Positions 1,322 to 11,750 of a stretch of 13,758 bases of DNA are shown here, one piece after another. Position 1 is the stretch's first letter. Every line of letters starts with the position of its first letter. The DNA lies in assembly GCA_004195335.1 (NCBI GenBank), contig SDWK01000036.1:1-13758 (forward strand), in the 5' to 3' direction. Below the pieces are notes generated by a model. It saw only the letters and a program-made list of their open reading frames with translations. It did not search any database and had not been told where the DNA came from. This DNA is from Shewanella sp. (GTDB taxonomy: Bacteria; Pseudomonadota; Gammaproteobacteria; Enterobacterales; Shewanellaceae). Position numbers and translations under genes: made by a program.

Positions 1322-3484
1322 ATGAAATTCATAAGTGTTCTTTGGTTAAGCTTTCTTCTTGTTGTTTCTGGTTGTTCTTCTACTGTCTCCAATATTTCGT
1401 CCTCAGCATCAACGGGTGTTGATAAGTTAAATTTTAAATCTTTAGAAGACAAAAAATTATTTGTGATGTTTGGCATCGAAAAAAACAACATTAATATTTT
1501 GTCTATTAAAAATAGTGCTGATGAATATGAGTTATCTTCTGTTGATAGTGATAATAGTAAGTTAGATTTTGATGATGGAGATCAGTTAAAAGGCTGCATT
1601 GGTGTTTCATCGCAGTCTGAATATTTTCCGTGTGATAGCTACTATGCAAACTCTGTTTTTCAAGAAAGATCTGCGGATGTTGCTGGAATATTGGCGGGCG
1701 CTATACTTTGGCCTGTTGGTGTTATTGCTATTGTTGGCGGCGGAGCTAAGAGCATGTTTACCCAGACTGATTTAGATCAAGACAGCATTTTAAAAGTAGG
1801 ACGTTATATTGATAATGAACTTGCTGGTTCACAATATAAATTAATGGCTGCGATTGATCAGTATAATTCTAACTTAATTTCTGATATTAAACCCGTATCA
1901 ATTTTGTTGACAACTCCAAAGAAAATTTATGATGCTATCTCTAACGCAAAAACAACTGGAGAATTGGTTCAACTCTCAATAATTATAGACAGATTAGAAG
2001 GAAGCCCTGTAGAAATTACTGCGAGTTCGTTAAATCAACGAGAAGAGCCAAAATCTAGAGCAAAAGTATTATCAAGATTAAAGCAAGGCACTATTGTATA
2101 TCCTAAGGCAGAAAAAAATGGTTGGATTAATGTCGGTAAAGGTTGGGTCTCTGAGAAGTTTACTAAGCCTATTAAAGAAAAATTTAAAATTGCCATTAAC
2201 TTAAGAGAAAATAAAGTCAATTTCTCAAATAATAGTCGTTATTTGTTAGCAAACAATAATATTAAGAGTTCTGACGTACAAAAAGTGTTGAATGATAAAG
2301 CGGCATTAGCCGGAATTTCGCAAACAGACATTTATAAATTAACAGCGCGTCGATTATCCCTGGTTGATAAAGAAGCTTTTACTAAAGCAAAAAAAGTATC
2401 GTCAATACAATCTTACAACGCGTATTTAAAAAAACATCCTGATGGGAAGTTTGTTGCTGAGGCTACGGCGTTAAGAGAGCCTTTATGGTTCAACTTTGCC
2501 AAGAATAATAATACAGTGATCGCCTATCAGAGTTTTTTGGAAGCATATCCTACTAGTCAATATTACACAGAGACTAGAAAACTATGGTTTGAATTAGCAA
2601 AAGCTTCTCATACAAAAGATGGCTTTAGAGCCTTTTTATCTGAATACAAACAGACAAGTATAGAAAACACTGCTGCGAATTCACTTGAGATGATTTGGAT
2701 AGAGGAGATAAAGGCATTAGGACTTTATAGTGAGTTAGCTTTATTTCTTAAAGAGTTACCACAATCAACTTATAAAGCTGACATTAGCTATGCACACAAA
2801 AACTGTTCGAAAATCGCAGTAACCTTTAAAACCTCTTCTAATATTTGTGTTATTAACTATTTAAAAATGGATAGCCTTAGAGCGCAAGCTGACTTCAATG
2901 GTTATGCGCGAGCCTATGCTTTATCTGGCGAGGTTGATGATTTTAATCAAGCGCAAAATTTAGCTTCCACCTTGGTTGAAAAACAAATAATCGAATATTT
3001 TGCACTTCTAGCACTTACAGATAAATCTAGAATGTTTTCATTAAAAATCGTTGATGAGCATGAGTATATTGGAAGTTCAGAGCACTTCACGTTTTTCGCT
3101 CAAGAAAAGGACTCCTCTGAGGCAAAAATTAAAGGTAAAGTAGAGCTTAGCATAAAAGAAAATTCTCCTTTTAATATTGAGCATGGCGCTTATTCGGTTA
3201 ATGTAAATCTGCACATGAAAGCCTCCTATTTTAATCAAAGACGCAGTGATTGGTTAGGTAATAAAGATTGGAACGATTTACAGGAAAAATCTACTAATTT
3301 AACCTTTCGAATTAGTGGCGATAAACCAGTTGCCAAACAAAATTATGATTATGGCAATTACACCATTGCCTACAAAGATGTTGGTTCTATGGGAGGCTAT
3401 ACGTTGTACTACTTGGACAAAGAAGTCGAATTTGATGCGACTGTTAATAGTTTTCATCCTAATCACAGCATGAAAATATTTTAG
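1322..3484 (+). CDS. Outer-membrane lipoprotein with SH3-like domain and helical repeats
   Basis: A 720-residue lipoprotein precursor. The signal peptide ends in the lipobox VSGC, giving lipid-modified Cys18, and Ser19 would favour outer-membrane sorting. Residues 119-141 form a Gly/Ile-rich hydrophobic stretch (AGILAGAILWPVGVIAIVGGG) that may insert in a membrane. Residues 230-284 look like a bacterial SH3 (SH3b) domain, with the usual LNQREEPKSRAKVLSRLKQG opening and a GWINVGKGWV core, as in proteins that bind cell wall. Residues 352-450 contain about three helical repeats of the YNAYLKKHPDGKFVAEA type (Tyr-Leu ... Pro ... Ala), like TPR-type repeats. The C-terminal 250 residues are unrecognised. 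The gene is A/T-rich compared with its neighbours. It is followed after 9 bp by the small secreted protein gene, so the two are probably co-transcribed. The function is unknown; an envelope or wall-associated role is inferred from the domains. Confidence 0.85.
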   Translation: MKFISVLWLSFLLVVSGCSSTVSNISSSASTGVDKLNFKSLEDKKLFVMFGIEKNNINILSIKNSADEYELSSVDSDNSKLDFDDGDQLKGCIGVSSQSEYFPCDSYYANSVFQERSADVAGILAGAILWPVGVIAIVGGGAKSMFTQTDLDQDSILKVGRYIDNELAGSQYKLMAAIDQYNSNLISDIKPVSILLTTPKKIYDAISNAKTTGELVQLSIIIDRLEGSPVEITASSLNQREEPKSRAKVLSRLKQGTIVYPKAEKNGWINVGKGWVSEKFTKPIKEKFKIAINLRENKVNFSNNSRYLLANNNIKSSDVQKVLNDKAALAGISQTDIYKLTARRLSLVDKEAFTKAKKVSSIQSYNAYLKKHPDGKFVAEATALREPLWFNFAKNNNTVIAYQSFLEAYPTSQYYTETRKLWFELAKASHTKDGFRAFLSEYKQTSIENTAANSLEMIWIEEIKALGLYSELALFLKELPQSTYKADISYAHKNCSKIAVTFKTSSNICVINYLKMDSLRAQADFNGYARAYALSGEVDDFNQAQNLASTLVEKQIIEYFALLALTDKSRMFSLKIVDEHEYIGSSEHFTFFAQEKDSSEAKIKGKVELSIKENSPFNIEHGAYSVNVNLHMKASYFNQRRSDWLGNKDWNDLQEKSTNLTFRISGDKPVAKQNYDYGNYTIAYKDVGSMGGYTLYYLDKEVEFDATVNSFHPNHSMKIF

Positions 3485-4293: not shown

Positions 4294-4342
4294 AGATGCT
4301 TATCAAATATCGGAATAGCTATCGCTACAAGGAAAGTTCTCT

Positions 4343-4888
4343 ATGGCGGCATGGAATCAAGACCTGTATACCAAGACCTGGTGCTTTGCTTCAGAAGTTC
4401 ACTTGGGGCAGAAACTCCCAGGTAGTGAAATTTCCTATATCAATCATCTGGGCAATGTAGCCCAGGAAGTCATGGCGGCACTGGCTAATGGGGTGGCGGT
4501 TGATCAGCCTGATCTGGCCGTTCAATGTGCTCTGTTACATGACACGATTGAAGATACCGACTGCACCTTCGAACAGGTTCTTGAGGTTTTTGGAGCGGAT
4601 GTGGCGAACGGGGTAATGGCCCTCAGCAAATACGCATCCCTTGCCTCCAAGGAAGAGATGATGGCCGACAGCTTAAACCGGATTAAGCAACAACCGAAGG
4701 AGGTCTGGATAGTTAAGCTGGCTGACCGAATCTCAAATCTACAGAAGCCACCTGCCCACTGGGATAAAGACAAAATGCAGCGCTACCAGCAGGAGGCCCA
4801 GCGTATTCATGATGCATTAAAGGACGCCAGCCCCTTTCTGGCGCAGCGCCTGCAAGGCAAGATTGATGGCTATGTCAGGTATATGTAG
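4343..4888 (+). CDS. HD-domain hydrolase of the MESH1/SpoT type
   Basis: A 181-residue stand-alone HD-domain phosphohydrolase. It has the motif series of the (p)ppGpp hydrolase half of SpoT/RelA and of small MESH1-like enzymes: His35 in SYINHLGNVA, His66-Asp67 in CALLHDTIEDT with Glu70-Asp71 following, and Asp128 in VKLADRISNLQ. The length is almost that of MESH1 (about 180), and all expected metal ligands are present. Enzymes of this group remove the 3'-pyrophosphate from alarmones using Mn2+, and some act on other phosphorylated nucleotides such as NADPH. No synthetase domain is attached or seen nearby. The start follows AAGGAAAG at 4329-4336. It is first in a seven-gene plus-strand run. 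The fold call is firm; the exact substrate is an inference. Confidence 0.85.
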   Translation: MAAWNQDLYTKTWCFASEVHLGQKLPGSEISYINHLGNVAQEVMAALANGVAVDQPDLAVQCALLHDTIEDTDCTFEQVLEVFGADVANGVMALSKYASLASKEEMMADSLNRIKQQPKEVWIVKLADRISNLQKPPAHWDKDKMQRYQQEAQRIHDALKDASPFLAQRLQGKIDGYVRYM

Positions 4889-4902
4889 CTCCTTTGGTCT
4901 TA

Positions 4903-4914
4903 TGACAGAATGAC
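4903..4914 (+). repeat. Second copy of TGACAGAATGAC motif
   Basis: This copy lies in the 69-base gap between the HD-hydrolase gene and the FliG-like gene, 55 bases before the latter's ATG. It is identical over 12 bases to the copy before the HD-hydrolase gene. A separate promoter or shared regulator site for the FliG-like gene is possible. Confidence 0.35.
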
Positions 4915-4957
4915 GAATTAACCTTCAAACCTATCCAGTTGTAGGGAATCAGATCAT

Positions 4958-5770
4958 ATGGACATGAAACAGACATTGTCTGAGCATGGTTTCGCTGGCC
5001 TGAGTGGCCAAGAGACATGGGATTCATCAAGTCTTGAACAATGTCTCGCTGCTAGTGACCAATTCGTTCAGCGCTGCCTTAGAGAGTGTTACAGCGATAG
5101 TATTGTGACAGCCCTATGTGGTGATGATATTGATGCCGTGCGTAAACGGCTGATAGAGAACATGAGTGGTCGTACTCAAGAACTCATGCTTGAGGATATT
5201 GAGAAGGCCTCACCATCTGCTGAGGAGATTGAGTCTGCTCGTAATGACATAGTACAGGTTATCGAGCGAGAGAAGGTCACCTATGAACAGGAGTTATGGG
5301 AGGAGTATCATTCGTTTCTCCCCCCTAAGGCTCTAGAGACTGATCTGGCCTACCTCAAATCATTAACTCCAGAGCAGCGCAATGTCGTCTTTGAAGAGAT
5401 GGATCATTCTCTGATGATCATTGTTTTCAGTTCTTCACCTGAATGGCGGAGCTTGTTTGACTCAACTAATCAGCTGTTCAGTGATCGAGCTGTTGAGCTG
5501 CTCACTGACGATATCGAATCAGAGAAGATTGATTACCCCTGGGTGCCTGAGCTGGGTAAGAGAGTGATGACTCACCTGGCCAAACTATCTGTTGATGACC
5601 CTAAATCGTTTGAAGAAGAAAAGTTAAAACGTATACAATGGGAAGAGGAAAAGAAGAACGCTGCTGATAAAGCCATGGAAGAGAAATTGGCATCGCTTTA
5701 CGAAAAGTACGGAGAGCCGATTGAAGAGCCCAAAGGGCTGCTAGGGAAAATAGGTGCATGGTTTCGGTAA
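4958..5770 (+). CDS. Protein with two FliG C-domain-like repeats
   Basis: A soluble, acidic protein of 270 residues without a signal peptide. Residues 31-110 follow the pattern of the FliG C-terminal domain (the rotor part of the flagellar switch that faces the stator). The stretch DQFVQRCLRECYSDSIVTAL resembles FliG's D-R-x-IQR-LRE-x-x-S/D pattern, and ENMSGRTQELMLEDIE resembles its NMSKRAAEMLREDLE. A second, more diverged copy spans about 136-210: LTPEQRNVVFEEMDHSLMI, then LFSDRAVELLTDDIE. The tail (217-250) is a charged, probably coiled-coil helix rich in Glu and Lys, ending in a short amphipathic GLLGKIGAWFR. FliG's N-terminal domain is absent, and no flagellar gene is in view. The ATG at 4958 is used; one at 4964 is equally possible. 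The ribosome site is weak. The FliG resemblance is my reading of the pattern. It may reflect a protein-protein interaction fold rather than a motility role. Confidence 0.7.
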   Translation: MDMKQTLSEHGFAGLSGQETWDSSSLEQCLAASDQFVQRCLRECYSDSIVTALCGDDIDAVRKRLIENMSGRTQELMLEDIEKASPSAEEIESARNDIVQVIEREKVTYEQELWEEYHSFLPPKALETDLAYLKSLTPEQRNVVFEEMDHSLMIIVFSSSPEWRSLFDSTNQLFSDRAVELLTDDIESEKIDYPWVPELGKRVMTHLAKLSVDDPKSFEEEKLKRIQWEEEKKNAADKAMEEKLASLYEKYGEPIEEPKGLLGKIGAWFR

Positions 5771-5802
5771 CTATTAATACTAGTTTATTAGAGATACTGG
5801 CA

Positions 5803-6255
5803 ATGAAAGAGGGTCTTATTCAGAAGATAAAAACCACTATTTTTTTGTGTATTTGTTTAGCATCTTCAATAGGTTTTGCAGATGTCTCTGAAGAAAGGGT
5901 CGCGCTGAACGAGCTTTTGCCTCAATTTCAAATGCTATGGAATCAACCGAATCATTCGAAAATATTCGACCTATTCCATAGAAAATCACAAACATTTGTA
6001 GAATATCAATCTAACGATATCGCCAAGAAAAAGATTATTGATTCCTTAGAAAACCTGAAAGCAGACTTCGGTGAAATTAAAAACTTTGAAATCAGAAAAC
6101 ATATCTACAGGAAGGAAAGCTTTGTAGTGCGTATCACCTATGTAAATAAAGGTATGGTCCCAGGTACATTCAATGTTCGGCCGGACTCAGATGGTCAGTG
6201 GCGAATATACGATATCGACATCGACGGTCAGGGCGATGTTGAATTGCAAGAGTAG
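5803..6255 (+). CDS. Exported NTF2-like small protein
   Basis: A 150-residue precursor starting MKEGLIQKIK, with a hydrophobic core (TTIFLCICLASSIGFA) and likely cleavage after GFA at residue 26, so probably periplasmic. The mature part has the alpha-then-beta layout of small NTF2-like (DUF3887/DUF4019-style) proteins: helices around LLPQFQMLWNQPNHSKIFDL, then strands ending in DSDGQWRIYDIDIDG, which closely resembles the usual last strands of that fold. An ATG at 5758 would add 15 residues before the signal peptide and overlap the previous gene by 13 bases. I prefer 5803 because it gives a normal signal peptide. The gene is more A/T-rich than its neighbours. NTF2-like folds often bind small ligands or act as accessory subunits; the role here is unknown. 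Confidence 0.7.
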   Translation: MKEGLIQKIKTTIFLCICLASSIGFADVSEERVALNELLPQFQMLWNQPNHSKIFDLFHRKSQTFVEYQSNDIAKKKIIDSLENLKADFGEIKNFEIRKHIYRKESFVVRITYVNKGMVPGTFNVRPDSDGQWRIYDIDIDGQGDVELQE

Positions 6256-6286
6256 TTCTCTAGTGAGACTGCCTAAAAATATCTCT

Positions 6287-6631
6287 ATGCAGCTGAATAA
6301 AATAGTTCACTGGTTCAAGGCCGTATTGGTACTTGAAGCGGGAGTTCTGTTGGTTAGTTATCTGCTATCTGAAACGGCCAATCCACAACTAGATAGGCCT
6401 GCCTATGCCTGGTTTATTGTTATATCGGTGTTTGTTGGTTTTATGCCGCTCTATCTTCGGAAGAAGTATCTGTTTCAGCTAAGGGCATTGTTAACGGTGA
6501 TTGCTATAGGTGTTTTAGGCGCCCTGTTGACCCGCTACTGGGAAACGGAGACAGGGCCCTTTGTGCCTCTGGTGATGATTCTCGGGTTATCAATATTTAA
6601 GGCTAAGGAGCGGCCTGCTGATGCCGTATAA
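6287..6631 (+). CDS. Four-helix inner-membrane protein
   Basis: A small membrane protein of about 114 residues with four hydrophobic segments at roughly 10-27, 40-57, 65-83 and 91-104. The basic loop RKK (58-60) and the basic C-terminus suggest that both termini face the cytoplasm. The start is uncertain. The frame is open from 6173, but that part overlaps the previous gene; ATG 6287 and GTG 6263 are candidates and neither has a strong ribosome site. Its last 11 bases overlap the start of the next gene, and a GGAG ribosome site for that gene lies inside this one. I do not recognise a family. In context it may anchor the locus in the membrane. Confidence 0.65.
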   Translation: MQLNKIVHWFKAVLVLEAGVLLVSYLLSETANPQLDRPAYAWFIVISVFVGFMPLYLRKKYLFQLRALLTVIAIGVLGALLTRYWETETGPFVPLVMILGLSIFKAKERPADAV

Positions 6632-6977
6632 GGTCGTGATAACCGTATCCCCTGTGCCTGCTGATGAAGAGCAGGCATGGAAGTGGCTGGATGTATTGGC
6701 CAAGACGGTAGACACCAACCCGCCTCAGCTCTTTCATGAGCTGATTGACCGCCTATTGTCCCGATACCACTGCTATACCGAACTCTTGGCTCAAGGAAGG
6801 CAAAAGGAATCAGTCTGGAGTGATGGCCCACTACGGAACAATATTGAGCTATTAGCCCCTGTTATTGGCATCTTTGATGACCGTGTCGGTGAAGCGCTTC
6901 CCTTCCTGATTGATACTGCTAACCAACTGGAACTGACGGTATTTGATCCCCAAACAGAAACGATACACAGGCCCTGA
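6621..6977 (+). CDS. Conserved small cytosolic protein with C-terminal VFDPQT...IHRP motif
   Basis: A 118-residue soluble protein. The order of motifs (MPYKVVITVSPVPADEEQAW at the start, WSDGPLRNN at 66-74, LPFLIDTANQL at 93-103, LTVFDPQTETIHRP at the end) matches a conserved family of small bacterial proteins that I recall but cannot name. The pattern WSDGPL ... TVFD-Q-T-IHRP is characteristic of it. Members are often found beside toxin-immunity or accessory loci, but I know of no demonstrated function. It starts inside the previous gene (11-base overlap, GGAG at 6607-6610) and ends 5 bases before the PP2C gene, so translation is likely coupled to both. Confidence 0.75.
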   Translation: MPYKVVITVSPVPADEEQAWKWLDVLAKTVDTNPPQLFHELIDRLLSRYHCYTELLAQGRQKESVWSDGPLRNNIELLAPVIGIFDDRVGEALPFLIDTANQLELTVFDPQTETIHRP

Positions 6978-6982
6978 TCTGA

Positions 6983-7837
6983 ATGACTTTCATTAGCACC
7001 AACAATCTCAAAGATACGCCCGATATCCAGGTCTATCAGGCTGTGGGAAAACGGGATACCCAGCAGGACTGCTATGTTGTGGCCCGATTAGATACGGGTA
7101 TTCTTCTGGCTGTTGCTGATGGGCACGGCGGTGGCAAGGCATCCTCAATCATCGCAGCTCTCCTCCCTGCTCTATTTCATGGGGAGCTGGAGCGAGCCTT
7201 CAAAGATAACTCCAACTCTCGTTATTCTGGACTATCTGATACCAAGATACGGGGCGTGGTGAGGAGAACCATTCAATCCCTAACCAATAAAACTCAAGAT
7301 ATGGGTAGTGGATCAACGCTAACCATGGTGTTTTTAGAACAGGGAACACGGCGTATTGATAATGACTACAGCCTTCAGATACGAGCGACTGTCGGTCAGA
7401 TGGGTGACTCAGTCTTTGCCTTGAGCGCAAAGCCTGGTCATCTCTGTGTTGCCCCAATGCATAGTGTCTTTGATGCTAAGAAGGATGTTGAAGAAATCAA
7501 AGCTTCATACCTCAACAACCATGGCAAAGAGTGCAAATGCGGCAGTGGTTATATCTACTCCTCCGGTAATGGTGTTGATGCACTGGCGTTAACTCGATCC
7601 CTTGGTGATAAGAACTTTACTCTGATACGAAAGCCCGAAGTGAAGACGTATACCGCTGCACCGGATCAGGCGGTGCTGCTGTTAGCCTCTGATGGCATCT
7701 TTTCTGATCCAAGCAATCCTCGTAGATGTATCAGGGGTTATGTGGATCAACTGCAGCAAGGGAAGAGCGTGGCCGAGATTGGTGAAGGCATTCAGTACAT
7801 GCATGACAACACCACGATCATTGGTGCCAGGTTTTGA
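6983..7837 (+). CDS. PP2C-type Ser/Thr protein phosphatase
   Basis: A 284-residue soluble metal-dependent phosphatase. The PP2C motifs appear in order: RDTQQD (24-29); DGHGGG with metal-binding Asp46 (46-51); GSGSTL (108-113); QMGDSVFAL with Gly141-Asp142; LTRSLGDK (203-210); ASDGIF with Asp237; and DNTT with Asp275. All the acidic residues that hold the two Mn2+/Mg2+ ions are present, so it should be active in removing phosphate from Ser/Thr. An insertion around 153-200 carries ECKCGSGYIY, which recalls the front half of a SEC-C zinc motif. It follows the 118-residue gene by 5 bases and precedes the 99-residue gene by 16. No Ser/Thr kinase partner is in the window. Its target is unknown. Confidence 0.92.
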   Translation: MTFISTNNLKDTPDIQVYQAVGKRDTQQDCYVVARLDTGILLAVADGHGGGKASSIIAALLPALFHGELERAFKDNSNSRYSGLSDTKIRGVVRRTIQSLTNKTQDMGSGSTLTMVFLEQGTRRIDNDYSLQIRATVGQMGDSVFALSAKPGHLCVAPMHSVFDAKKDVEEIKASYLNNHGKECKCGSGYIYSSGNGVDALALTRSLGDKNFTLIRKPEVKTYTAAPDQAVLLLASDGIFSDPSNPRRCIRGYVDQLQQGKSVAEIGEGIQYMHDNTTIIGARF

Positions 7838-7853
7838 TGCTTAAGGAGAGGTA

Positions 7854-8153
7854 ATGAAACATACCCAACAAGTTAAGAGCTATTCCCAAAGCCATGAGCA
7901 GTTGGCCGAGGACATTGGAGATTTGTACTACGACTCACTGGCTGGCTTACTGCGCCTGTTATCCGACAAGATGAAGCGGGATGGTGACGCCGATGCAGGT
8001 AGAGGGCGTAGCAAGCTAGCCTCAGAGCTCTATGCCTGCAGTGAGCAATTGGCTCAAGCCGCCAAGCATGCTGATGTAGCCTGGGATATCTGTGAGCCCT
8101 ATGTCAAAGAGTGGATGGAGAAGACTATAACTCAGTCCATAGATGCCGAGTAA
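7854..8153 (+). CDS. Small helical cytosolic protein, last gene of the plus-strand run
   Basis: A 99-residue protein with no signal peptide or membrane segment. It is predicted by eye to be nearly all helical, with a basic Gly-rich turn (DGDADAGRGRSK, 42-53) between two helical halves. It has the best ribosome site in the run (AAGGAGAGG, 7843-7851, two bases before the ATG), which supports translation. It follows the phosphatase by 16 bases. Its last 22 coding bases overlap, on the opposite strand, the end of the TPR protein gene. I do not recognise a family. It could be a small partner of the phosphatase, but nothing in the sequence shows this. Confidence 0.7.
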   Translation: MKHTQQVKSYSQSHEQLAEDIGDLYYDSLAGLLRLLSDKMKRDGDADAGRGRSKLASELYACSEQLAQAAKHADVAWDICEPYVKEWMEKTITQSIDAE

Positions 8154-9262
8154 AGCAATTCCCCCTCTGCACTGATCCGAGCTAGGTGTCGCCAGCCATG
8201 ACGAACCAGAGATGTCTTCTTATTGTTAATCAGCTCGTCAACCATCCGTTGAAGGTCTAGGCTAATGGGGCTTAATCGGTCTACATAGATCAACCACAGC
8301 ATGCGTATGACGGCCTGTTCTATCTGATCGTCTGATTGTCCCTGTGCTGTGAGTTGGATCTCTTTGGCATTTTCTGAGAGGGTAAAGGTCATGCCCTGCT
8401 CATCAGTATGGTCCAAGTAACGCTCTTCCAGTGTATACCTGAGCCGGTCCTGAATTATCCATCTTCTGCGGTTAGTGTCGGGGGCTAATCTTAGCTGTGC
8501 GGCGAATATCGAGTCACTGTAAATGCCAATTACCGAACGCTCAGCCAGTTTAGGTAGCACATCAGCATCACCCAGCGCTAACGCCAACGATAGATGATAT
8601 CGGGCATTTTCAAAGTGGCGAGTATGCCTTAAGTGGTAAATGCCGAGGTTGTAGTTGGTGTCTGGGTCATAGGCAAATTTCTCAAAGGATTTGCTCCAGT
8701 AGTGCCCCCCTTTCTGAGGATCTTTGGCGACGCCGAGGCCGTTGAAATAGAGCGTTCCCAGGTTCAGATAGGCCAATGCAGTAGGGGATCGCTTTAGACA
8801 GTCCAGATAGGTAAGCCGGGCCAAAATGTAGTTGTTCTGCTCCTCCCGCACGACCCCAAGATTACTGCAGGCATCTGTATAATCGGCACTCCTTGCGTGT
8901 TGGAAGAAGGTTGCAGCTTTATCTAATTCGCCGTCATTCTGATACATGCCGCCAAGCAGGTTGTTGGTGTAGCCGATATCGAACTGATTGAGCTGCTCCG
9001 GGTGCTTGAGGGCATCGAGTAGAAACCTAGCCCCCAGTGCTCTATCTCCTCCACGCAGTGCCAGCGTACTGCCCAGCAATACGGCTTGGGCTGCAGGAGT
9101 TTTCTTGTCAAATCGTTCAAGGTCTCCCTTTTCGCCATACTGCTGATGGAATTGAAGTGCCGCCTGATACTGTTCCGGTGCTATGAGACTTTCCTCTGCC
9201 AAGGCAAGGCCTGTACAGAGTGACAGATATGACAGAAATAAACCGATTATCCATTTACTCAT
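8132..9262 (-). CDS. Exported TPR/Sel1-repeat protein
   Basis: A 376-residue precursor. The signal peptide MSKWIIGLFLSYLSLCTGLALA is followed by EES, so the protein is probably periplasmic. Residues of about 90-250 form helical repeats of TPR/Sel1 type, such as NLLGGMYQNDGELDKAATFF, then SNLGVVREEQNNYILARLTY, then the Sel1-like LNLGTLYFNGLGVAKDPQKG and NYNLGIYHLRHTRHFENARY. These normally act as protein-binding scaffolds. The last 120 residues are unrecognised. Its ATG overlaps the stop of the 672-residue membrane protein gene (ATGAGTAA), so translation is coupled; an ATG at 9274 would add four residues. It is the last gene of the minus-strand run and overlaps the facing run by 22 bases. An inner-membrane partner (the preceding gene product) is inferred from the coupling. 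Confidence 0.82.
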   Translation of the reverse strand: MSKWIIGLFLSYLSLCTGLALAEESLIAPEQYQAALQFHQQYGEKGDLERFDKKTPAAQAVLLGSTLALRGGDRALGARFLLDALKHPEQLNQFDIGYTNNLLGGMYQNDGELDKAATFFQHARSADYTDACSNLGVVREEQNNYILARLTYLDCLKRSPTALAYLNLGTLYFNGLGVAKDPQKGGHYWSKSFEKFAYDPDTNYNLGIYHLRHTRHFENARYHLSLALALGDADVLPKLAERSVIGIYSDSIFAAQLRLAPDTNRRRWIIQDRLRYTLEERYLDHTDEQGMTFTLSENAKEIQLTAQGQSDDQIEQAVIRMLWLIYVDRLSPISLDLQRMVDELINNKKTSLVRHGWRHLARISAEGELLYSASMD

Positions 9263-11273
9263 TGTCAGGCTCATCCTTGTTCAGCGTTTCAGGATAAAAG
9301 ATCCGCTGGGCGATGTGCTTCCATAGGTCATAGGGTATCTCAATGTTCTGTTGATCGAACTCTTCCAGCACCTCCATGATGATATACATGCCTCTTGATT
9401 TGGTGAGTTCTGAGCATTCACGAATTTCCTCGAGACAGCGCTGAGTGATGGTATCGAGCAGTACTGGATCAAGTTCTTCAGGCTTCAAAGGGTACGATTT
9501 ATAGAATCGCTTGCTAATGTAGTCCTCTGCCTCTAAGTGCTGATAGCTGCCTACTGACTGGATCTGTTGAACCCTCTCCGCTGTTAGCCGTTCAACACGG
9601 CCCCCATGGAATTGGAAGTAGAGGGTGTGTTGCTCATCCACTACGCCATCCAGGTCTCTCTGAAGCCTGATGTAAACGATGTCATCCATGAGCTGTTGTT
9701 GCAGGTCGGCGTAGATGCCGACCGATAGGATATGACAGTGCTTTAATGCTTCGTCGTATTCAGTAATGACTCGCTTGGTATCTACGGTCTGGTTATAGAT
9801 CTCATCCAGTTCACCTGCTACTGAGACAGGCGCTATGGCAACCCCGATATCAATCTCATCCTGTCCGTCAACAAGGTTGGTATCCATTGAAATGATGATG
9901 CCGTTAACTCGGTGCATATAGGCACCGACTTCAGCCTTAATGAAACCGATTTCCAGTTCATCAACCGAGCGTTGAAGGGAGACAAGCCAACCATCATTAC
10001 CTGCTTTCTTAAGGGCTTGGTTGAACTCAACCAGAGGCTGCAAGCGCTGGTCACGGGTGAGATTGATTACCTTGGCAGAGCCTTCTGCATTAACAAGGAA
10101 TGTCCGAACCATATTCATTAGCTTGCGTGCAGTAGGGGCGTTCATCGGCTCAATTTGCCAGTGTTGTAACCCTCCAGGCTCATCATGCCTTGTAATTGAA
10201 AAAGCCTTATTATCAGTGATGCCTATCCACTTCTCGCCGTTGTTGGGCTGATAAATAGGTGCTGGGTCGAGACTGATATTCTTGTAGTCGCTGATACGTT
10301 CATAAAGATGGATGATGCACTCAGCAAGGTTTTTATCTGTTTCTTCACCAGGGTCGCAATCGACTGTAATGGCATAACGATGCCCTTCAGGCTGAGAAAT
10401 GCGTGTCTCGGTTTCCATAGGGCTGATATCCTCAGAGCTATCCGGCACAGGAAGTGGTTTTTTACCCATCGCGGTCCAGAAGTAAAGCCCCACTGCTGAA
10501 AGGTACAACAGTGATGCCCCCAGCAGTGTGCTTGTAGGCACTGATGTCTTTAACGGTATGATTAACAAGAAACACCCAAATAGCAGGGCAAAGCCCGTCT
10601 TGAATATGGAGAAAGGATGCTTGAGGAAGCTGGTCAATGGATTGGCAATACCTCTCAGGCAAGCAAGCAGGCAGAGGTTGATACCGATGACCCACCAGCT
10701 ACCCTGAAACATCACTTCAGCAACGCTTCCCTTTTCCGCCTGCATAAACAGTGCGATAAGCCATATCGCAACCAGTAGCCATAACATCCAGGTATTGGCT
10801 CTGAGTAGCCTGTTGGGCAGGTTGTTTGGTTGAGGTAACCCTGCATAGAGGTTGTGTTTCTCCCAGTCTTTAGGCGGCTCTTCATCTTCTTGAAGATCGA
10901 CTAAAGCTAGCAGGTGCCAAGGGATACCCCCCACCTTGCTGGTATCGCTTTTGATCAGCCCCGAGACGGGGGCTTCGAGCTCAAAGTTAAAGATGCTTGC
11001 GGTGATGGGATAGCTGAAACTGATGTGCCCAATTGTTCCTGCAGGTATGGTAACGCCAAGGGTATCGTAGGGTTCAAGAAGTTTAACCGGCCTCCACCAG
11101 AGACCGGCATCCATCAATGTTTTCTCGTTGGCATGAGAGGATAGATATAGAGGAACATCGACAAGAGACGACTTGCCTTCAAGGCGGCGATCCCACTCTT
11201 CTCTGATACCTGCACCAATCGAGTTACGGATGTCTTCTACAGTGATGATTGGTTGTTTATCTGAGTCAGACAT
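9255..11273 (-). CDS. Large four-helix membrane protein with soluble C-terminal domain
   Basis: A 672-residue protein. Residues 1-160 are soluble and probably beta-rich from about 70 to 125 (GVTIPAGTIGHISFSYPITA, then GGIPWHLLALVDL). Four hydrophobic helices follow at about 161-179, 191-209, 226-242 and 250-269. A 400-residue acidic soluble domain follows, probably cytoplasmic given the basic GKKP after the last helix. I recognise no domain in it. The start at 11273 is chosen because AAGG lies six bases before it; an ATG at 11279 has the AAGG directly against it. It lies a few bases after the small anchor protein gene and overlaps the TPR gene by 8 bases, so the three form one unit. The function is unknown; a scaffold or sensor across the inner membrane is a guess from topology. 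Confidence 0.8.
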   Translation of the reverse strand: MSDSDKQPIITVEDIRNSIGAGIREEWDRRLEGKSSLVDVPLYLSSHANEKTLMDAGLWWRPVKLLEPYDTLGVTIPAGTIGHISFSYPITASIFNFELEAPVSGLIKSDTSKVGGIPWHLLALVDLQEDEEPPKDWEKHNLYAGLPQPNNLPNRLLRANTWMLWLLVAIWLIALFMQAEKGSVAEVMFQGSWWVIGINLCLLACLRGIANPLTSFLKHPFSIFKTGFALLFGCFLLIIPLKTSVPTSTLLGASLLYLSAVGLYFWTAMGKKPLPVPDSSEDISPMETETRISQPEGHRYAITVDCDPGEETDKNLAECIIHLYERISDYKNISLDPAPIYQPNNGEKWIGITDNKAFSITRHDEPGGLQHWQIEPMNAPTARKLMNMVRTFLVNAEGSAKVINLTRDQRLQPLVEFNQALKKAGNDGWLVSLQRSVDELEIGFIKAEVGAYMHRVNGIIISMDTNLVDGQDEIDIGVAIAPVSVAGELDEIYNQTVDTKRVITEYDEALKHCHILSVGIYADLQQQLMDDIVYIRLQRDLDGVVDEQHTLYFQFHGGRVERLTAERVQQIQSVGSYQHLEAEDYISKRFYKSYPLKPEELDPVLLDTITQRCLEEIRECSELTKSRGMYIIMEVLEEFDQQNIEIPYDLWKHIAQRIFYPETLNKDEPDNE

Positions 11274-11285
11274 CGGCATCCTTGC

Positions 11286-11621
11286 TCAACGGTAGCTGTA
11301 GCCCTGATCATGGTAATAGCAACTACCCAGGAAGCGCTTGAACCAACTCATGGGTTGGACTTCAGCATCAACTAATGGGTCGTGTTCACTGTTGCTATTG
11401 AGCTCGTCGTATATCTGCTGTATTTGATCTTCGGTCAAGCAATTCTTACCGTTGCTGGCAGGGGATCCAAAGCTTACTTTGTTCGAATACTCTTCAATAT
11501 AAACGGTGAATCTCTTGGAGATTACTTGATAGCGAGGTCCCAGCTGGTACAGGGTCCATGACCTTGTACCTATCAAGGCGACAAGCAATACGGTAACAGA
11601 GACTAGTATCTTGCGCCTCAT
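11286..11621 (-). CDS. Small membrane-anchored protein
   Basis: A 111-residue protein starting MRRKILVSVTVLLVALIGTR. It has one N-terminal hydrophobic helix with a basic front end, so it is either anchored with its C-terminus in the periplasm or processed as a weak signal peptide. The rest contains two cysteines (in NGKNCLTEDQ and LGSCYYHDQG) that could form a disulfide outside the cytoplasm. The ATG at 11621 is used; AAGGGAA (11634-11640) is somewhat far from it. A TTG at 11633 would add four residues but sits directly against that site. It is the first gene of the minus-strand run, about 12 bases before the large membrane protein. No family recognised. Confidence 0.7.
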   Translation of the reverse strand: MRRKILVSVTVLLVALIGTRSWTLYQLGPRYQVISKRFTVYIEEYSNKVSFGSPASNGKNCLTEDQIQQIYDELNSNSEHDPLVDAEVQPMSWFKRFLGSCYYHDQGYSYR

Positions 11622-11656
11622 GACGTGAATCAATTCCCTTAGTATATGAAGAAGTA

Positions 11657-11686
11657 ACAGTACCCCTCTTACCGTGCTGGCTTCAA
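11657..11686 (-). promoter_or_regulatory. Candidate promoter of the minus-strand three-gene run
   Basis: On the minus strand, TTGAAG (11686-11681) and TACTGT (11662-11657) are 18 bases apart and lie 36 or more bases before the first gene. This is a fair but not strong match to a sigma-70 promoter. It sits directly outside the IS21 terminal repeats, so the insertion may have come close to the original upstream control region. Confidence 0.3.
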
Positions 11687-11690
11687 GTCA

Positions 11691-11750
11691 CAGCGTTGTC
11701 AATCAGCGTTGACAATTGACCAGGTTTCAGCGTCCAATTTTGACCAGGTT
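11691..11750. repeat. Terminal repeats of the IS21-family element
   Basis: Repeated words cluster after the istB remnant. CAGCGTTGTCAA (11691-11702) and CAGCGTTGACAA (11704-11715) differ at one base, and a related CAGCGTCCAATT lies at 11729-11740. TTGACCAGGTT occurs at 11716-11726 and 11740-11750. Multiple short terminal repeats of this kind are typical transposase-binding sites at IS21 ends. The exact outer boundary is uncertain but should lie near 11691-11705. The other end lies beyond the window. Confidence 0.6.

Follow-up and report, generated by a model that had tools for sequence, protein, structure and literature searches.

A stand-alone FliG_C-domain protein encoded beside a gene of small alarmone hydrolase type in Shewanella

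The window, a 13,758-nucleotide stretch of Shewanella sp. DNA, contains on its forward strand a gene (4958–5770) for a 270-residue protein in which the C-terminal domain of FliG occurs on its own; judged by its sequence, this is a genuine FliG_C domain in a genuine, unusual gene, and adds a new variant to the known FliG_C family; its locus has been found at least once more. FliG_C is the torque-receiving domain of the flagellar rotor and is commonly regarded as exclusive to the flagellum. In the window it occurs by itself next to a signaling enzyme, an HD protein of small alarmone hydrolase type, and the order HD, FliG_C-like, TPR recurs in a second species of the same genus (genome G045). The reading that we favor, at about even confidence, is that the product is a fast-diverging stand-alone FliG_C docking or adaptor protein of an accessory alarmone-hydrolase locus; its adaptor role, its co-transcription, and its partners are what we infer. 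The motor domain has apparently been put to new use as a signaling adaptor.

The first-pass annotation had placed at 4958–5770 a tandem FliG C-domain-like protein that lacks the FliG N-terminal domain, and an intact open frame of exactly that extent is present. Pfam FliG_C (PF01706) matches residues 28–104 (5039–5269) at E 6.3e-13 and 49.4 bits, where the cut-off is 23.3, and FliG is present in 9 of the 10 sequences that a PDB search listed up to E 10, the best at E 5.8e-6. Homology to the FliG C-domain is thereby borne out for the first half of the protein, as is the absence of the N-terminal domain, since neither FliG_N nor FliG_M, the domains that bind FliF and FliM, is among the Pfam results up to E 10. 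A cyclic nucleotide-binding (cNMP) domain is also absent (Pfam). Two other identities were rejected: a plain flagellar FliG, by a score of 25.8 bits against the cut-off of 226.7 for the NCBIfam FliG equivalog TIGR00207, matched through its C-terminal part only, and an MgtE transporter, by the absence of the transporter part (Pfam).

Pfam places FliG_C in residues 28–104 but not in the second half, residues 107–215 (5276–5602), where hmmscan lists no FliG_C up to E 10. The two halves do not align significantly with each other; a local alignment scores 33 over 13 residues, which 138 of 2000 shuffles reach, and for a global alignment 1446 of 2000 shuffles do as well as the observed pair. On these two grounds we do not assert a tandem repeat; the FliG C-domain is confirmed for the first half but not, at the strength claimed, for the second. 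A second FliG_C repeat in residues 107–215, diverged and possibly of FliG_C/MgtE_N type, is plausible and unproved. MgtE_N matches this region at E 0.031 (15.2 bits, under the cut-off of 25.9), at E 0.11 when the whole protein is the query, and is not listed for residues 107–270. A profile of 31 FliG proteins gives the second half 5.4 bits, a score reached by 2 of 1000 shuffles (170 without a reported score being counted as not reaching it) and, among 743 pieces taken from other ORFs, by 2, the two top pieces overlapping within one protein; these pieces come from six-frame ORFs of at least 70 residues, so that spurious ORFs are included, and 13 FliG_C ORFs were left out. When the profile was widened by 13 non-flagellar domains and the first half, the score was 6.0 bits, which 3 of 5000 shuffles (717 without a score, again counted as not reaching) and 5 of the 743 pieces attain, and with the G045 domain added it was 5.0 bits, reached by 12 of 5000 shuffles and 6 of 743 pieces (759 shuffles and 117 pieces without a score, counted likewise). 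The scores are thus reached by about 0.06–0.8% of the backgrounds, of which the shuffled ones exaggerate significance where proteins are helical. The best local match to the FliG_C profile, at residues 172–204, is in register with the torque helix and places an R and then DD.

Structure models of the protein are all-helical and of low confidence (mean pLDDT 47.8 and 58.3). In them the predicted helices of the second half are ordered like those of the first, and residues 216–251 (5603–5710) form a long helix, a charged tail that may be a coiled coil. Foldseek with the full low-confidence model gives FliG (3hjl) as the top match at E 0.78 and TM 0.15; with the model of the second half alone nothing significant was found, a flagellar C-ring chain being eighth (E 8.4).

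Directly upstream, on the same strand and separated by 69 bases, is the gene for a 181-residue HD_4 protein (4343–4888; Pfam HD_4, 44.6 bits). Residues 6–180 of this protein are covered by homology to solved small alarmone hydrolases in phmmer searches (6yvc, 6z3n, and 6z3o; E from 7.2e-34, for 6yvc_A, to 3.3e-33), and by sequence it is a small alarmone hydrolase. Downstream on the forward strand follow three small ORFs: one with an apparent signal peptide on reading (5803–6255, inside an ORF at 5758–6255; Pfam MlaC at E 0.01, under the cut-off), a hydrophobic one, also as read, that overlaps it (6173–6631; no family over cut-off), and one of 118 residues (6621–6977; no family over cut-off). 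The fourth downstream gene encodes a PP2C-type phosphatase (6983–7837; Pfam PP2C 34.9 bits, cut-off 20.3) with nine relatives in the protein database (42–66% identical), and its acidic residues Asp46, Asp237, and Asp275, which we take to be metal ligands, are invariant across 10 aligned sequences. A 99-residue ORF without a match (7854–8153) completes the forward run, and a TPR/Sel1-like protein, whose TPR and Sel1 matches are under their cut-offs, is encoded on the opposite strand (8132–9274), with the PP2C gene and the small genes lying between it and the FliG_C gene. The gaps and overlaps suggest that the genes at 4343–8153 may form one transcript; scans for promoters (5 sites, 6.3 expected) and terminators (9 sites, 3.7 expected) were uninformative. 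The signaling-type, non-flagellar neighborhood proposed in the first-pass annotation is confirmed by the match of the HD protein to small alarmone hydrolases and by Pfam and NCBIfam scans of window ORFs, in which this FliG_C is the only match to a flagellar family, and no MotA or MotB homologue is found among the window ORFs. Of the two enzymes named there as neighbors, the HD hydrolase does adjoin the gene, but the phosphatase does not.

The corresponding locus of G045 (L091) has its three genes on one strand, the minus strand: an HD gene (8680–9246), an ORF of 296 residues (7763–8653), and a TPR gene (6604–7845). The HD gene and the ORF are 26 bases apart, and the ORF overlaps the longest form of the TPR gene by 83 bases. 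The HD and TPR proteins are homologous to those of the window (34% identity and E 1.3e-33 for TPR by tblastn), and no clear homologue of the PP2C and small genes of the window was found in L091. In the 296-residue ORF, Pfam FliG_C matches residues 187–240 at E 0.038 and 14.7 bits, under the cut-off of 23.3, and NCBIfam lists nothing. The widened FliG_C profile, built without this ORF, gives it 19.6 bits; among 465 ORFs, 13 score above it, all of them with FliG_C, 12 being members of the profile and the window ORF contributing its first half, and the next below it is a weak FliG_C ORF of Oceanospirillum sediminis at 7.9 bits. A profile of flagellar FliGs alone gives 3.8 bits. Direct comparison of G045 residues 171–285, a region picked after the position of FliG_C was known, with the first half of the window protein gives a score of 48 that none of 2000 shuffles reaches, and comparison with the second half gives 33, reached by 199 of 2000; for the whole ORF against the whole protein the score is again 48, which 50 of 2000 shuffles reach. 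When the L091 ORFs are searched by phmmer with the window protein as query, this ORF comes out at only E 0.29. Its position between the HD and TPR genes and its profile score, taken together, make a good though not compelling case that the window and G045 proteins are counterparts. In its N-terminal half the G045 protein has a stretch suspected to be MotA-like, which we do not claim; it scores 1.7 bits, a value that 3 of 1000 shuffles reach (304 without a score being counted as not reaching it), and no domain is reported. In G017, a third genome of the genus, the HD gene occurs without TPR or FliG_C-like homologues within the stretch read.

Relatives of the window protein over its full length appear to be rare. 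None besides itself was found at E 0.01 among 5.8 billion proteins, in a search that relies on shared five-residue words, and the second half alone has no match there at E 10. No relatives were found in viral contigs or genome contigs; a plasmid search returned six records, all matching over residues 26–104, of which one is annotated fliG and the others are unannotated, and the DNA at 4300–11,700 has no plasmid match. In a set of 145 genomes that includes its own, 96 match at 1e-5, and the matches listed, the window aside, fall between residues 16 and 127 and lie in frames of 332–383 residues, the length of FliG. Among 398 genomes of the phylum, a set that overlaps the first, four match at 1e-8, these being its own and three with frames of FliG length (340–383 residues, matching residues 30–115). 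Neither set yielded a full-length relative. However, at 1e-5 only a frame of FliG length was listed for G045, where the 296-residue ORF was missed and later located by gene order. Since sequence searches overlooked this diverged ORF, the rarity of the protein is an upper estimate.

ARM-like motifs common to FlgY, MgtE_N, and FliG are described in one report (PMC11870540), according to which FlgY, itself an ARM-like protein related to FliG and MgtE modules, dimerizes and forms higher oligomers; a second report describes FliG as distantly homologous to MgtE (PMC7355467). The second half of the window protein matches MgtE_N weakly, and the protein differs from MgtE_N-type and FlgY ARM-like domains in having neither a transporter part nor flagellar genes nearby. 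Compared with FliG itself, it is homologous to the C-terminal domain over residues 28–104 but lacks FliG_N and FliG_M, falls far under the equivalog cut-off, has an extra helical half (in low-confidence models) and a charged tail, and is encoded outside a flagellar locus.

In the favored reading, the core of the locus would be a small alarmone hydrolase, a FliG_C-like protein, and a TPR protein, recurring together as an accessory set. The 270-residue protein would be a non-flagellar, cytoplasmic, helical docking protein or adaptor, a location and a role that we infer. Its armadillo-like FliG_C module, perhaps with a second diverged copy and with the charged helix at the end, may bind a partner protein, which would be brought to the signaling enzymes of the locus, the alarmone hydrolase and here also the PP2C phosphatase, or those enzymes may themselves be regulated. 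The adaptor role is suggested by the FliG_C domain in the ORF, the repetition of the gene order in G045 with an ORF that scores above the background on the FliG_C profile, the match of the HD protein to small alarmone hydrolases, the oligomers of FlgY as an ARM-like relative, and the joining of FliG_C to cyclic nucleotide-binding domains elsewhere. It is weakened by the finding of only one sister locus, whose FliG_C match is under the Pfam cut-off and low on flagellar FliGs alone, and in which PP2C and the small genes have no clear homologue. The whole-protein comparison with G045, the phmmer E of 0.29, and the empty NCBIfam result count against it as well, as do the HD gene without TPR or FliG_C-like homologues in the G017 stretch read and the low pLDDT of the models, which have no significant fold match. 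The distribution of the HD gene also weakens it: at 1e-15 the gene occurs in 3 of 118 genomes (its own, G017, and G045) and is absent from 115, and of 69 plasmid records with a match to it, the three examined for neighbors, on Tolypothrix, Nostoc, and Sphingobium plasmids, have none annotated as FliG.

The first alternative, which we regard as rather unlikely, is that the protein faces a motor, its torque helix binding MotA-type stators or competing with FliG and so braking or diverting the cell's own motors when alarmone levels change. A FliG_C search of the host genome gives three places over cut-off: the 270-residue ORF, a 355-residue frame on contig C232, where FliG (321.8 bits), FliF (254.2), and FliH (336) lie in a row, all over cut-off, and a 341-residue frame on contig C66, where FliG matches the whole equivalog model (178 bits against a cut-off of 226.7) and adjoins FliF (242.8, over cut-off). 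These two frames are flagellar by family and by neighbor, so that the host has two flagellar FliG genes and the 270-residue ORF is not one of them. The gene had been described as outside any flagellar context, and this holds for its contig but not for its genome; the two fliF-fliG pairs elsewhere make contact of its product with a motor possible.

The residues of the torque helix bear on the same alternative. Arg281, Asp288, and Asp289 of Escherichia coli FliG are given primary importance for rotor-stator function, and Lys264 and Arg297 secondary importance, in two papers (PMC6079164 and PMC12505986). In the window protein the corresponding residues are Arg, Glu, Asp, Cys, and Ser, so that the primary positions are occupied by R, E, and D whereas both secondary ones differ; the second half also aligns an R and DD in register. 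Among 31 FliGs, position 281 is Arg in 31, 288 is Asp in 28, and 289 is Asp in 30. The C66 FliG of the host (L041, 91–2875) keeps the Arg but has Thr and Gln at the aspartate positions, the sole FliG to deviate at both, and loss of these residues therefore leaves a motor role possible, just as their presence is no proof of one and no sure mark of motor contact. The G045 protein, as read from an alignment, likewise keeps the Arg but has Glu and Ser. Contact of the window protein with a stator is possible on the residues it retains, and MotA and MotB homologues do occur in 5 of 11 loci of the class with non-flagellar FliG_C, O. sediminis counted; but no such homologue is encoded in the window, and the absence of the HD gene from so many related genomes also speaks against a regulator of this kind. 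A more specific proposal is an alarmone-linked clutch, a diffusible FliG_C protein with two torque-helix modules that is made together with the small alarmone hydrolase and occupies the torque interface of MotA-type stators. We consider it improbable; if it were true, nucleotide-stress signaling would be coupled to ion-driven motors outside the flagellar regulon.

That the contig is misassembled or a contaminant, and the gene foreign to this genome, is similarly improbable, although the assembly consists of 1060 contigs with a contamination estimate of 4.91 and the PP2C protein is found in no other of the 145 genomes at 1e-10. Elsewhere PP2C occurs in one other genome (G145) of 369 at 1e-12 and also in O. 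sediminis, with no FliG_C ORF among the adjoining ORFs read in either locus; it has no phage or plasmid match, and matches in three viral contigs are 27–28% identical. The right end of the contig (11,811–13,758) carries an IS21-type transposase (292.6 bits), a stretch without another match in the assembly, and the left end (323–821) has transposase-like fragments in two frames, as read. Against a foreign origin stands the FliG_C-like ORF between HD and TPR homologues in G045, of the same genus, and even if the contig were foreign the nature of the protein would be unchanged.

FliG_C outside flagella is not confined to the window. Across the class, FliG_C is found at 1e-5 in 146 of 274 genomes, and nine of these genomes, chosen for extra or odd matches and not at random (one of them, G157, has a single match in a 350-residue frame), gave 19 matches, in seven frames of FliG length and 11 other ORFs, the latter in 8 of the 9; for the class as a whole this count of non-flagellar FliG_C proteins is a minimum. 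Three ORFs join cNMP_binding to FliG_C by Pfam (in G260, G248, and G376), and an ORF of G375 is their homologue; in G260 (L077, 4757–10,418), G375 (L078), and G248 (L081), although not in the G376 contig, the ORF is followed by MotA and MotB homologues, for which Pfam confirms MotA_ExbB, OmpA, and MotB_plug in G260. The G260 locus also encodes, just upstream, a protein that has a guanylate/adenylate cyclase domain. These three loci look like a cyclic-nucleotide-controlled, stator-bearing non-flagellar machine. A different type is represented by a 708-residue membrane-type protein of G196, which has both FliG_M and FliG_C, and by a similar 587-residue ORF in G164, with MotA and MotB homologues in both loci. 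The large ORFs of this kind, frames of 587–793 residues in which FliG_C is joined to an apparent membrane segment, lie in L073 (7413–9539), L074 (1952–3712), and L075 (3965–6334); that of L073 has FliG_M as well, and MotA and MotB homologues accompany the first two. Ahead of the membrane segment they read as FliF-like, so that they may represent fusions resembling FliF-FliG in a motor other than the flagellar one. The large ORF is the only FliG_C match at 1e-3 in G164 and G241. The six loci without MotA and MotB are those of G241, three of G376, G335, and O. sediminis; three of the six (L076, L079, and L080) are shorter than 9 kb, and the absence of stator genes there weighs little.

These loci raise the further alternative that the window protein belongs to an independent non-flagellar machine driven by stators, with the stator genes at another place in the genome. 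The cNMP_binding-FliG_C and membrane-type proteins, with their MotA and MotB neighbors, provide the precedent, and the window protein resembles the former in having FliG_C on a signaling-type protein outside a FliG gene. It differs from them, however, in having neither a cNMP domain nor stator homologues beside it, and it reads as lacking a membrane segment, which leaves membership of such a machine very improbable. Pairs of adjacent small FliG_C ORFs, three of the four over cut-off, occur in O. sediminis (L051, 8967–10,288; one of its two over the Pfam cut-off) and G335 (L082, 7212–8174) and resemble the window protein in being small FliG_C proteins outside flagellar loci, but they are two adjacent short genes with other neighbors, among which no alarmone hydrolase was noticed; those neighbors look like housekeeping genes. 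The 157-residue FliG_C protein of O. sediminis has no match in the 274 class genomes at 1e-8, in a search run without a positive control, and its 278-residue neighbor has no FliG match in the PDB. It is hardly likely that the window gene is a decaying or chance remnant, a functionless FliG fragment captured by transposons, since, despite the transposase at one contig end, the transposase-like fragments at the other, and the lack of a full-length relative in the protein database, it is an intact frame inside a tight gene run, its best FliG matches are 28–40% identical and hence do not indicate a recent copy, and an intact FliG_C-like ORF stands at the same place in G045.

In the part of the openly licensed literature that was searched, we found no description of a stand-alone FliG_C protein of a signaling locus and no report of a FliG_C partner gene of small alarmone hydrolases. 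The view that stand-alone FliG-like modules in signaling loci had not been described thus agrees with that literature, but they are not unique to the window, given the 11 ORFs of other than FliG length in eight of the nine picked genomes and the two in O. sediminis. Scattered relatives either join FliG_C to cyclic nucleotide-binding domains or adjoin stator homologues. If such proteins touch stators, nucleotide signals would have a connection to ion-driven motors of which we found no description in the openly licensed literature searched; if they do not, FliG_C would be a more general docking module, with a bearing on the origin of FliG.

Some further features of these sequences may be mentioned. 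The window encodes on its reverse strand a 674-residue protein (9255–11,279) that appears to contain membrane segments and matches no family over cut-off. A search of plasmids and of 98 other genomes at 1e-6 found no relative. An ORF at 1322–3484 reads as a 720-residue lipoprotein-like protein with a weak SH3_3 match, and its G+C content is 0.342 against 0.467 for the whole contig. Finally, a 957-residue frame on contig C77 of G376 (L079, 3–2873) has two FliG_C matches over cut-off and is possibly a true tandem FliG_C protein.
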